DNA of 64,000 nucleotides, from NCBI GenBank assembly GCA_026745465.1, contig JACYXH010000216.1, positions 4,693,001-4,757,000 of the forward strand. Direction: 5' to 3'. The notes under the pieces are model-generated. The model searched no databases. It was not told the DNA's origin and was given only the letters and a program-made list of their open reading frames with translations. This document shows positions 16,501 through 22,500 of this stretch, one piece after another. Within the stretch, counting starts at the first letter, position 1, and every line of letters begins with the position of its first letter. The stretch is from Lota lota (taxonomy: Eukaryota; Chordata; Actinopteri; Gadiformes; Lotidae). The translations under genes and the position numbers were made by a program.

Positions 16501-19500
16501 CTGTGGGCAACTAATAAAACATGTTCAGCCCTTTACTCATTTCTATTTCAGAAGTTAGACATATCCTTGTCACCATTGACATTCTACTTCCAGATTTATA
16601 TTCTTTGTGTACTGTGCAAATATTGTCTTGTGTGACAGATGTACACCATTTTATTTTCATCTTCCATGACGTGACTTTTCAATCTAATTCAGAGCCCACA
16701 ACTCCTTTTTTGAAATGTAAACCTGACGCTGGCTGAACTCCCCCAGACGCAGCAGTCTCCAGTCCTGACACCAAGTGGTCAGAGCAACCCGTCCATCCCG
16801 GTGTACACCTCCCCCCGCTCACCCCCCCTGCAGCTCCACCCACCCTCCGGCACCACCCCCGCCGGGCCAGCCGCACAGAACAACCAGCCCGTTGAGTTCA
16901 ACCACGCCATCAACTACGTCAACAAGATCAAGAACCGCTTCCAGGGCCAGCCCGACATCTACAAGGCCTTCCTGGAGATCCTGCACACGTACCAGGTCCG
17001 TACGGTCGGATGAGCGATACTGTGTAGCCGCTTAGAGGGCGCTTTCATCCATAGAGGCATTCAGTGATCTCAGATGCATGTCATTGAGGAGCAGGTATGG
17101 GTTAGGCATCTTGAACTGGGACCCCATTTTTTGGTCAGAAAGTTGTCCCCAACTTCTGTTTCCACACACATTGTTTTAACTCTTTCTACACCATGCCACA
17201 CTAGTGATTGATGGTCCTTTATTTACATTACAAAAGTCTGCAGTCTCTCGACACCAACTGTATATCATGCCACCCCAAGCTGATTTGGGGGTCAGGAAAC
17301 GACTAGGTTAGGGTGTAAGACTCCCAACCGAAAGGTTCTGGATTCAAACCCTTATGCCTGCAGATGCCTCACCCCTACCTTGATGGCTACCAAGAGCAAG
17401 TTGCCTAACCCCTGAGCAAGTTGCCTAACCCCTACCAAGATTGCTAACAAGAGCAAGATGCCTAACCCCAGCCTGCTACTTAATTACCTCTTAAACTCAC
17501 TGTAAGTGGTGCTGTAACTGTTTTTATTCTTTGTTGATCAGAAGGAGCAGCGGAACGCCAAGGAGGCCGGGGGGAACTACACACCGGCCCTGACAGAGCA
17601 GGAGGTGTACGCTCAGGTGGCCCGGCTCTTCAAGAACCAGGAGGACCTGCTGTCAGAGTTTGGCCAGTTCCTTCCTGATGCCAACAGCTCGGTGGTAAGC
17701 TCAATCAGAACCAGACCTTTGATTTGCCAAAGTACAAATTGACAAGGAACTCATCAAGTTGCAGGTGTCTGCATTTGTTTAGTATACTAATCTAGATAAA
17801 AAACTAAAAGCATAACTATATAAACAAAATTATAATAATGACTTGCCAATTGGTATCACATTTGATGCTTCCTAGACTCCTTTGTGTTTAGATTTGTAAT
17901 GCCAGGTAAGGGGCTGTAATGGAAAGTAGTAAAGCTTAATTCCACTCACCACTCTACTCACAAAGCCCATCAATTGTAATTGGTAAACGACAATGGTTAA
18001 CAAGTTCCTCAATTTAGCAATATGTTCAGTGTTTCAAAGCAGGGATTATATCAGTTTAAGTAATTGGGTAGTGTTGGAGTATATATTCTGTCCTTAAGCC
18101 TTTCACATTGCAACGCTTACGTTGAGGTACTGACTCCCTCTTAATGACTAACTGTGCCCGTCAACGTCTCCATCCTCTCTGTTCTGCGGTGTGCGGTCTG
18201 CAGCTTTTGAGTAAAACCACGGCGGAGAAGGCGGAGTCAGTGCGGAACGACCACGGCGGCACGGCCAAGAAGCTCCAGCTCAACAACAAACAGCGGCCCA
18301 ATCAGAACGGCTGTCAGATTCGCCGACACCCAGCCGCGACGACCACGCCCCCCGTGAAGGTGTGTAGGCGAACTTTAACCTCAACGGTAATCCAAGCTGA
18401 AGCATCAGTGTATTATAATACACTCTGAGCTTAATATGATTATGTTGAAAGACCTATTGAGATATGCTCCCAAGACTGTGAGAGTTTTATAATGGCAAGC
18501 CGTGTGTAAATCAGTAAATTACAAAAAAAGTACGTTTGTAATTGTCTGAATTGAAGTGGCCAAAATATTTCATCGATTTCATGTTATATAATTTAGAATT
18601 ACTCAATCGAACATTCCATATTATGATTTGATAAGATGTTCTTTATTGATCCCAGATGGGAATGTGGGTGTCAATGCATAGTTTTTTGTGGTGAGTGATT
18701 ACAATGCAGATCCTAAAGGATGCACAGGAGTTTCTTTACTTCCTGTATTTGGCTGTTACTTCACACTGATGCTTTACCAACGGCGAATTTATCCATTCTG
18801 CTGACTACATTATATTTTATATTTTGTGTGTGTTCTATGGTGGAGAGCACTTTGATATGCTTTTGTGAATGAAATATGCTAAGCATGTGATTCCTGTATA
18901 TGCTAATCCTGTAATACTATAATGTTATAATCTCTGGATAGGGTTTATTGTCAGTGCTTTTTGTAAAACAATGCGCTTTTGTCTCCCCTATTTTCTATTG
19001 GCTGTTGCAGCCGAAGCACAAGTTACTTAATATGAAAGATTCCTCCACGGCAGACGCAAGCAAGCATGGAGCTGGCACAGAATCTCTGTTTTTCGAGAAG
19101 GTGTGTACAAAATACACAGTATACATTTAGCACACTTGTTTATCCAAAGCGACTTACAAGTGAGCCTGAGAACAGTCAAAGCAGAGTGAATTATGGCTTC
19201 AGATCTCTGAACTTGGGGGTATTATTGCAAGCCCTTTTAACATTTAATAATTTGGGCTGACTAGTAGCAATTTAGTTTTCACTAGTGGAAATGACATTTT
19301 GACTAGTTAAAATGTTAATTTAAGATATCTGTAAAACAATTTTTACATGTTACAAATATATTTTCACATGTAGAAATTACATTTAGAGTAGTCGAAACTG
19401 AGTTACATATATCTTTAATTTAATTATAGATATCAGTAATTCCTTTTTCACTAGTAACAATAATGATAACAGATATCTACAATTGAATTTCTACATGTTG

Positions 19501-22500
19501 AAAAAGGATTGTAACTAGTGGAAAAGTAATTACCCATTTCAGATATCAACAATTGCATTTCCGATATGTACGACAGATCAACAAACCATTTCGGATATGT
19601 GGCCGTAATATTATTAAAATACCACAATGCCATTAGTCGACGTTTAATTACCATAATAGTTTCGGATATGTCGCCCTAATGACCATATTAGTTTCGGAGA
19701 TGTATGTACGTCATTGAAGATATCTACAATTACATTTTGAGTAGTCGAAATTCCTTTTTTGATATCTAAAATTCAATTCTGACTAGTTATAAAAGGAATT
19801 GTAGATATCTCAAATATAATTGTTACTAGTACGAATATAGTTTTCACTAGTTATAATTGTATTTCAGATATCGGCAATGCAATTCTAGATATCTGAAATT
19901 ACTTTCTTACTAGTTACAATTCCAAGCCGACATATCAATAATTTCATTTTGACTAGTCAGAATTGAATTTTAGATATCTAGAATTCAATTAATGATATCT
20001 GTAATGTACGAACAATTGTAGATATCTACAATTAACATTTCCACTAGTAATAATTGAATTGTAGATATCTACAATTGACATTTCCACTAGTGAGAATTGA
20101 ATTATTGATATCAAGAATGAAAATTTTGACTAGTGGGAAATTAATTGTAGATATCTTTAATTAGAATTGCTACTAGTCAAAATTACATTATGTATATGCT
20201 GGCTTGGAATTATAACTAGTAAAAAAGGAATTGCTATTACCGCTACTGATTAAATGTTAAAAGGGCTTGCCATAGGGGTATACTCCATATTTGATCCTAG
20301 TATTGGTAATGATCGTGTTGATAAACCATAACCCCACATTGAACAGCTTGATATTGAGAAACCATTCCTTAAGTTCCACCAAAAAAACACCTACAAATGG
20401 GTTCTCAATAGAGGAAGGGTGAATCACTCTTCCACAGTCAATGCTATTTTCTTGAACGCTGCACGCAATCCATGTATTGTTATTTGGTGATAACCTTTCC
20501 CCCCCATCTCCATGTTGTAGGTGCGTAAGGCCTTGCGTAGTGCAGAGGTGTACGACAACTTCCTGCGCTGCCTGGTCCTCTTCAACCAGGAAGTGATCTC
20601 CAGGGCTGAACTGGTACAGCTGGTGCTTCCCTTCTTGGGGTGGGTTCACTTTCACTTCGCCCATTTAACATAACAGTTATAATCCAACCCATTACAGTTT
20701 TTAAATTATAGCTCCATTTTGCTCATCAAGCCGTAAGACATAATCTTTTTTCTTTTTTTTGGGTATATTTTATATATATATATATTCTATTTTTGGCATA
20801 AACCTGACAATCAGCACTTGGACCAACAACAGAAAGGCAACAATAAAAACCCACAAAACAACGAAACAGTTGGGTGCGATTGTGTATTCAATTCTAATCT
20901 CCACCCCCATAGAAAATTCCCGGAGCTGTTCAACTGGTTCAAGAACTTTCTGGGATACCGCGAGATGTCATCCCACATCGAGAGCTACCCCAAGGAGCGG
21001 GCCACGGAGGGCATCGCCATGGAGATAGACTATGCTTCCTGCAAGCGGCTGGGCTCCAGCTACCGGGCCCTCCCCAAGAGCTACACTCAGCCCAAGTGCA
21101 CCGGCCGCACACCCCTCTGCAAGGAGGTGGGTACCGGGCCTACTGGGACATTGTTCACCTAGCACTGGACCGTTTCTCCATTCAGTTAGTCCTACCCAGC
21201 TAGTGTTTAGATGCCACGATGATCCAAGGTGGCCGCTAAAGGAAATTAGGCTCACTAGGCAGGGGTGTTCATTCTTTTAATTCCATGCAAATCCATGGAG
21301 TTTCTTCTTCTTCTTCTTTGCCTTTTATTATTGTAAAATGTGCATAAACGGGGAGGTCATAGAATCTGGTTTGAATCAGAGTTCTCCTCTTTGTTTATGA
21401 TATGCAAGCGTTGTAGCTGATAGAAGTGTAGGCGCCCAATCACAGCTCACTATTTTGAGTACAATAAATAATGAATCCTCACATTTGGGAACCTTATAAA
21501 GTCAATGCATTTCTAATGAGTCATGAAAACTGTGTGCAGGTTCTGAATGACACCTGGGTGTCCTTCCCATCCTGGTCGGAGGACTCGACGTTCGTGAGCT
21601 CCAAGAAGACCCAGTACGAGGAACACATCTACCGCTGTGAGGACGAGCGCTTCGAGGTGAGATGTTCAGAGTGATGTCATTGTGTTTTGATTGGATTTCC
21701 TTGACAGAGCAAGGCGGTAGATCCCAGTCTTTTTTCTCAAAACACAGTCAAAGGAATCGCCACTATGGGAGGATCCTTGCGAGATTTCATTGCAGTTCTC
21801 GTTCTCCTGTCTTCAGCTGAGCGATGGCAACTCAGCCAAGTTGTCACATATCCTGTCGTATCCCACTGGTTTGGAGGTGGCCCATGTAGTTTGATGAACA
21901 TCAAGCCGGATACCCATTAAATTAGTAACTTGTTTTGGGTCGGTGTGAGTATTAGATTCATCTGGCTGAATCCCCTTTCACACTCTGTGGTTCTGCATGG
22001 GAGCACTTTAGTGCAATTCATTAAAGGCCTGAGCTCATCAGGTAAAGCATCCCCAGTGCTCTCGATAAAGTCCCTGAATCCATTAATTCAGGGACTTAAT
22101 TAATTGGCAGCCTGAATCTTTTGCAGAGTTCATCTATTTCCACGTCTCCAAAACCGGGCGGCATATTCTGTGCTGGTGGCCAGTTGTCAATATCTTTCTG
22201 GCGACTTAACATTTTACCACACTTTCGAGGAGCGAGGAAGAGCTGTTGTTAGTTTTCGACTTATGCGGGCTAGTGGAGTGTCAGCATGATGACGATGGTA
22301 AAATAAAATGGGGGGGAAAATTGGGCTTTTTTTATGACAAAGAAGAGATTATTGGAGAGGTTTTGCATGATGTGTGCACTTGTTTTTACCATTGGCAATA
22401 AGGTCGTTTTAATATTGAAATTGTAAAAAATATTATAAATATATATATTCTTTTAATAAAGTAATGCTCAAAGAAATGGGCGTTCCCCCACGTCCAATGC

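Follow-up and report, generated by a model that had tools for sequence, protein, structure and literature searches.

The window analysed here is a 64,000-nucleotide stretch of the Lota lota genome (assembly GCA_026745465.1, contig JACYXH010000216.1, positions 4,693,001 to 4,757,000 of the forward strand). At 19223..20274 it contains a 1,052-bp element whose interior carries a lattice of perfect palindromic sites set about two helical turns apart. The element is a non-coding, non-autonomous DNA transposon with terminal inverted repeats (TIRs), of the miniature inverted-repeat transposable element (MITE) type. From its sequence we propose, with moderate confidence, that it would be moved in trans and that its phased array of dyad sites may capture a transposase or a companion protein. 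The parts of the element, in window coordinates, are these:

19216..19222, + strand: left 7-bp target-site duplication (TSD), GGGGTAT, an exact match to 20275-20281
19223..19248, + strand: left TIR, 26 bp (family TIR TATGGCAAGCCCTTTTAACATTTAAT)
19260..19552, no strand: left dyad-site array (ACTAGT, ACATGT, GATATC) on a 21/22-bp grid
19553..19713, no strand: central region without perfect sites, with repeated asymmetric GATATGT-type motifs
19714..20225, no strand: right dyad-site array, including 43-bp tandem units at 20014-20184
20249..20274, - strand: right TIR, 26 bp
20275..20281, + strand: right 7-bp TSD, GGGGTAT

The TIRs start TATGGCAAGCCC, and the two ends are 96% complementary; a first-pass annotation of the window had described inverted-repeat ends and duplicated flanks, and both are borne out. 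Five open reading frames (ORFs) of at least 40 amino acids overlap this copy, none of those wholly inside it exceeding 67 amino acids, and a scan of 18900-20600, made for this single copy, yielded neither a tRNA nor an Rfam match. The TIRs, the 7-bp TSDs, the presence of TIR ends across the genome and the lack of a long ORF together identify a non-autonomous TIR transposon. All the marks of a MITE are present: TIRs, a TSD of fixed length, and dispersed copies without a transposase gene.

Copies and target sites

The genome searched comprises 575 Mb in 867 contigs and includes the window. The inner 23 bases of the TIR, with up to two mismatches allowed, match it 464 times (243 + 221), and the reversed control not at all. 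A two-site phased pattern taken from the lattice matches 2,914 times (overlapping readings counted), again with a reversed control of 0. Ninety copy loci were examined, the two window copies and 88 others (L032 and L051 are one place), and 68 of the 90 have both ends. The 7-bp TSD is exact in 36 of these 68 and agrees in at least six of seven letters in 46, the other 22 agreeing less. Averaged over 32 exact TSDs read on both strands, leaving out four composed of GT/CA (GTGTGTG, CACACAC), the target sites lean towards GTnnnAC, with G at position 1 in 34/64 and T at position 2 in 28/64. Some loci (L031, L042) have doubled ends.

The second copy in the window has the following parts:

31660..31666, + strand: TSD AACCAAC
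31667..32842, + strand: second element copy, 80% identical, with a partly duplicated right end
32843..32849, + strand: TSD AACCAAC, right side

It holds 15 ACTAGT, 17 GATATC and 3 ACATGT.

A lattice of dyad sites in one frame

The first-pass annotation had put ACTAGT and GATATC at about 15 each; they number exactly 15 and 15 in 19223-20274, against means of 0.33 and 0.41 (maxima 3 and 4) in 1000 order-1 Markov trials. A third palindrome, ACATGT, occupies three further grid positions of the same copy. A consensus built from 24 copies of 840-1200 bp, among 42 both-ended copies (50 loci given), contains 17 ACTAGT, 18 GATATC and 4 ACATGT. All three cores share a single frame, TTnnn[ACTAGT|GATATC|ACATGT]nnnAA, mostly TTnYn...nRnAA, and the lattice of such sites lies on both sides of the central block. 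Of the 39 consensus units, 38 have TT at -5/-4, and the two A positions, +9 and +10, are kept in 38 and 39 units. A pyrimidine stands at -2 in 36 and a purine at +7 in 35; the positions adjoining the core vary much more. When every place in the consensus is scored for the ten fixed letters, 38 sites match at 10/10, none at 9/10 and seven at 8/10 (random means 0.025, 0.62 and 5.7), so that 38 of the 39 units are perfect sites. These hold three exact hexamers only, and 52 of the 64 possible palindromic hexamers are absent from the consensus altogether. The two halves of the core are matched in 38 of 38 in-frame sites, none of the six kinds of hybrid core occurring in frame (the hybrid GATTGT appears once, outside it). 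The probability of this if halves were independent is 2.5e-15, a figure that is overstated since the units descend from one another.

Consecutive consensus cores are 21 or 22 bp apart in 33 of 38 steps, the five off-grid steps being 28, 177, 27 and twice 43 bp. Mean pitch is 21.15 bp in the left block and 21.14 bp in the first right block, with a best helical period of 10.6; in the last block, made up of the 43-bp tandem units, the pitch is 21.5 bp and the best period 10.75. In the 42 both-ended copies, 1174 of 1382 core spacings depart from a multiple of 21.3 by no more than 1.5 bp. It is this 21/22-bp pitch that is the regular feature, and not alternation of the two main palindromes. The first-pass annotation had them largely alternating, and the kind of core does change in 18 of 29 steps where 15.0 changes are expected, but the excess is not significant (p = 0.17); with ACATGT counted as ACTAGT, the consensus gives 23 changes against 19.4 (p = 0.16). 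Extended palindromes such as AATTGTAGATATCTACAATT, described there as frequent, turn out to be exceptions: in 30 tests of the arms beyond the fixed TT/AA, complementarity does not exceed that of column-shuffled pairs (lowest p 0.06 to 0.1).

A further asymmetric motif, TTnnnGATATGT, occurs on both strands at consensus positions 362, 372, 393, 464, 496, 750 and 1013, that is, in the central region (window about 19553-19713) and at two places on the grid. Those two, 750 and 1013, are the two right-array grid positions that lack a perfect site, and at both the motif leads into YGGCTTGGAAT, a sequence similar to the inner TIR.

Among 31 old units compared with others of the same core (175 pairs), identity is 1.00 in the core, 0.93-1.00 at the TT/AA letters and 0.23-0.72 at the other offsets. 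Spacer identity between same-core units is 44% in direct and 45% in inverted orientation, where composition alone would give 30%. Units in part of the right half have multiplied, as the 43-bp tandem units and the partly duplicated right end of the second window copy show (the right end is apparently duplicated in some other copies too). The repeated internal duplication suggested in the first-pass annotation thus accounts for part of the right half; it is not the sole cause of the lattice, because cores are identical while spacers are only about 44% alike.

A putative capture array and its alternatives

Given their ten to twelve constrained letters in dyad symmetry, free flanks, two-turn pitch and all-or-none fidelity in the consensus, the sites are read here as candidate targets of a dimeric protein. 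The binding-site array that the first-pass annotation listed among its ideas is the one that gains support, from the 38 perfect sites, the lack of any 9/10 site and the two-turn pitch. The element would move by cut and paste, a transposase acting in trans making 7-bp target duplications with GTnnnAC preferred. One dimer would bind each site; with sites two turns apart, adjacent dimers would face the same side of the helix and could make contact, building a cooperative nucleoprotein array. The missing autonomous element would most likely supply the bound protein, either its transposase or a companion that binds DNA. By offering a large binding surface, the array would help a short non-coding copy to capture scarce transposase, and it may assist in pairing the ends; selection for capture would have held every site of the source lineage to the full motif as the intervening letters drifted.

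A number of observations weigh against this proposal. One comes from the present copies. Of 92 loci given to a test of the left array, 90 matched and 68 were retained, each with at least 300 aligned columns and 85% identity, after removal of one duplicate; outside CpG, cores diverge from the consensus by 0.0285 and spacers by 0.0275, and variants common to at least three copies show no depletion (13/120 columns against 15/111, p = 0.55). Over the whole alignment cores do appear better kept (identity 0.9725 against 0.9446 elsewhere; variants in at least two copies in 10/331 motif columns against 29/308, p = 0.0008), but the left half alone gives 4/118 against 5/107, which is not significant. 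The excess lies mainly in the right half and is not relied on, because repeat units there can align to the wrong neighbour. Inserted copies appear to decay neutrally, and since cores and spacers of the left half diverge alike, constraint is seen only between units of the source sequence. The first-pass annotation named palindromes no better conserved than spacers as an outcome that would refute it. That outcome is seen for the left half in the present copies, where cores are as divergent as spacers, but not between the older units. At a helical repeat of exactly 10.5 bp the last block is poorly phased (R 0.59), whereas the other two reach 0.91. An autonomous element was not found in the genome, the widest paired ends holding inserted retroelement-like or Tc1-like sequence. 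The two places with P-type transposase domains, PF21787 and PF21788, are both without the site motif and neither is tied to the TIRs of the element, and a 22-base likeness to the TIR about 9 kb from the PF21787 place is at chance level (E = 0.11). For Hermes, a heading in a published account calls it unlikely that extra internal transposase binding supports transposition. Both the link from motif to protein and membership of the P superfamily are putative.

The same sites might instead bind a host protein, or a replication or maintenance factor, much as rows of dyads do in viral episomes, and the transposon would gain chromatin opening, germline expression or replication. That the sites fill most of the interior and are not confined to the ends suits this explanation, as does the equal pitch of the dyad symmetry (DS) element in oriP of Epstein-Barr virus (EBV), whose paired EBNA1 dimer sites lie 21 bp centre to centre (PMC3798644). 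EBV oriP, with its DS and family of repeats (FR), is however a viral replication origin and not a transposon. The motif has no tie to any known host factor, and two two-site patterns found 2 and 39 stretches in IMG/VR, none listed with more than one independent match; we regard a host or maintenance factor as possible but rather unlikely. Neutral, satellite-like expansion by slippage and unequal exchange, with the palindromes as accidental survivors, would explain why units have visibly multiplied (the tandem units and duplicated right end) and why left-half cores of the present copies show no sign of constraint. Drift would, however, leave many near-miss sites, where 38 are perfect and none scores 9/10 beside spacers about 44% alike, and we think an origin of this sort improbable.

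Two structural explanations fare less well. The first-pass annotation had considered self-folding, and the palindromes could fold the strand or its transcript (as a cruciform, double-stranded RNA or a source of small RNA). Fold energies are indeed low against dinucleotide shuffles (z -4.6 for 500 nt as RNA, -12.2 for 562 nt as DNA), and remain so against shuffles with the motif fixed (z -3.0 for the left consensus, -9.0 for the right consensus, -6.9 for the right half of the window copy). The signal weakens once the composition of the units is kept: swapping letters between units at matching offsets brings z to -1.2 on the left and to between -2.0 and -3.2 on the right. Arms next to the core are complementary no more than chance allows. 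Folding is mostly a by-product of the palindromes and not a designed structure, and we hold it to be a very improbable reason for the lattice. Intrinsic curvature, or the positioning of nucleosomes by AT tracts in phase every second helical turn, agrees with a best period of about 10.6 bp in the left and first right blocks and 10.75 in the last. Curvature would tolerate many cores, yet three exact palindromic hexamers fill the perfect sites, which leaves this explanation barely credible.

A more speculative view, to which we give little weight, is that the lattice is an array of symbols: three alternative palindromic cores in one frame, their halves always matched. Were this true, three homodimer specificities would share one array, or self-complementarity itself would be required, for example for site-to-site pairing or for exchange between copies. 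With dyads at two-turn pitch over most of its length, the element would then be in essence a protein-docking filament with ends, a sort of mobile element of which we know of no description.

Non-coding transposons are usually thought to need their tips only; here the interior is apparently held to a strict pattern of 38 dyads, and a parasite of a parasite seems to have equipped itself with a long capture surface for a protein not its own. This would also mean that multi-site end recognition, as known in hAT elements and in Galileo, can be extended over the whole of an element. The motif is explicit, and the protein that binds it and its effect on mobility are directly testable.

Comparison with known systems

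TSDs are 7-8 bp long in the P superfamily and 8 bp in hAT elements; the 7 bp found here agree with the former and not with the latter. En/Spm, a plant CACTA element with a 3-bp TSD, offers a parallel: its subterminal regions repeat a short motif many times, in that case the 12-bp non-palindromic TNPA site, and a companion protein binds there.

Galileo, a Foldback-like member of the P superfamily from Drosophila, likewise has a 7-bp TSD, with consensus GTAGTAC (PMC2775673) where GTnnnAC is found here. It has three THAP sites, two within its long-end repeats and the first at +63-80, and the P element has THAP sites at 53-63 and 41-51 (PMC3688188); the consensus here has its first complete sites close to these positions, at 54-69 bp (left end) and 45-60 bp (right end). 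The extra sites of Galileo have been proposed to aid the specificity or efficiency of its transposase (PMC3688188, PMC4079207), and by analogy the present array may be a capture surface for a transposase or its companion. Galileo-G differs in having 1.2-kb TIRs with long direct repeats, against a 26-bp TIR and 38 dyad sites here. TIRs of hundreds of base pairs built from tandem repeats, as in Foldback- or Galileo-like elements, are thus not what is found, and the longer internal inverted similarity fits units that are self-symmetric and equally alike in direct and inverted orientation. Tetris, a foldback element of Drosophila virilis, is similar in being non-coding with internal tandem repeats (PMC4079207), but these are repeats of about 220 bp inside long TIRs, and its TSD is 8-10 bp.

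The zebrafish P-like element Pdre2 is a vertebrate element that also combines TIRs with subterminal inverted repeats; its TIR is 13 bp (CATACCTGTCAAC) and its TSD 8 bp (PMC10983969), no such array is described in the portion of that paper available, and by eye CATACCTGTCAAC is not like TATGGCAAGCCC. The hAT elements Hermes and Tol2 have several short sites near each end, bound by the BED domains of the transposase and read by a multimer (PMC10368747), a likeness limited by their gathering toward the tips with no lattice over the element. Dada elements of fish make a 6-7-bp TSD (PMC8869645), but Dada-U6 and Dada-U1 insert into small-RNA genes and no TIRs were found in them (PMC3706591); the present element has TIRs, and the insertion at 19223..20274 lies in no recognised tRNA or Rfam gene. 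Titles and abstracts searched describe neither the element nor such a lattice, and the TIR and unit strings match only an Arabidopsis PARP paper. Novelty by name is unproven, because the literature covered left out most subscription journals and probably Repbase Reports.

Search for an autonomous partner

Exact element ends listed in the genome number 67 left and 79 right, and the widest pairs among them were picked by eye as candidates. Twenty exact TIRs are followed by a letter other than C, and a minority of these loci were read. A 5.7-kb pair (C704, L066) was rejected as autonomous, since it holds a gypsy-like ORF (named by eye). This open frame of 1349 amino acids, at L066:1173-5219 on the - strand inside the element copy, is probably a young retrotransposon insertion. 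A 2.5-kb pair (C80, L051) was set aside for its ORF of a Tc1/Sleeping Beauty-type transposase. Pairs on C41 (L047/L048) and C42 (L049/L050), with ends 11.4 and 12.2 kb apart, were rejected for their inverted array-like flanks and the retrovirus-like and ZBED-like ORF fragments (named by eye) that they enclose; they look like rearranged, nested, repeated inverted duplications of copies. The piece of C43 that was read (L061) has one such element end. Thirty-one loci, mostly end-only or short copies, have no unmasked interior in common with one another; the exception is L062 and L104, whose match continues outside the element.

P-type domains occur in the genome at two places, a PF21787 match interrupted by two stops and a partial PF21788 match. 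Close to the P-like place on C692 (L065) there are an ACTAGT and a GATATC 42 bp apart; these are not the motif and gave no significant element match. THAP domains give 58 matches, about 23 of them near-identical, and three of the near-identical ones share a contig, at intervals of about 7.8 kb. Of the multicopy THAP loci, the one that was read (L147, G000:C815:35400-43500) encodes an ORF with DDE_Tnp_4 plus HTH_Tnp_4; neither the element TIRs nor the site motif was found there. RRM-like exons (by eye) lie beside the DDE_Tnp_4 ORF. Viral and bacterial contigs yielded no relatives (the TIR was sought in viral contigs, the array in genome contigs, and two-site patterns in viral contigs, where matches were chance-like). 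The autonomous partner may have been lost or have diverged, may belong to another superfamily, or may be missing from the assembly.

Other features of the window

An exon at about 20521, downstream of the element copy at 19223..20274, matches a PAH repeat of SIN3A, and because the element lies upstream of this exon it is probably intronic. A run of G (97% matches) fills the 837 nt at 10007-10843 and leads into G-rich repeats; it may be an artefact of assembly or a very long G tract. At 40084-40649 lies a minisatellite with a 57-bp unit repeated about 10 times (91% matches).

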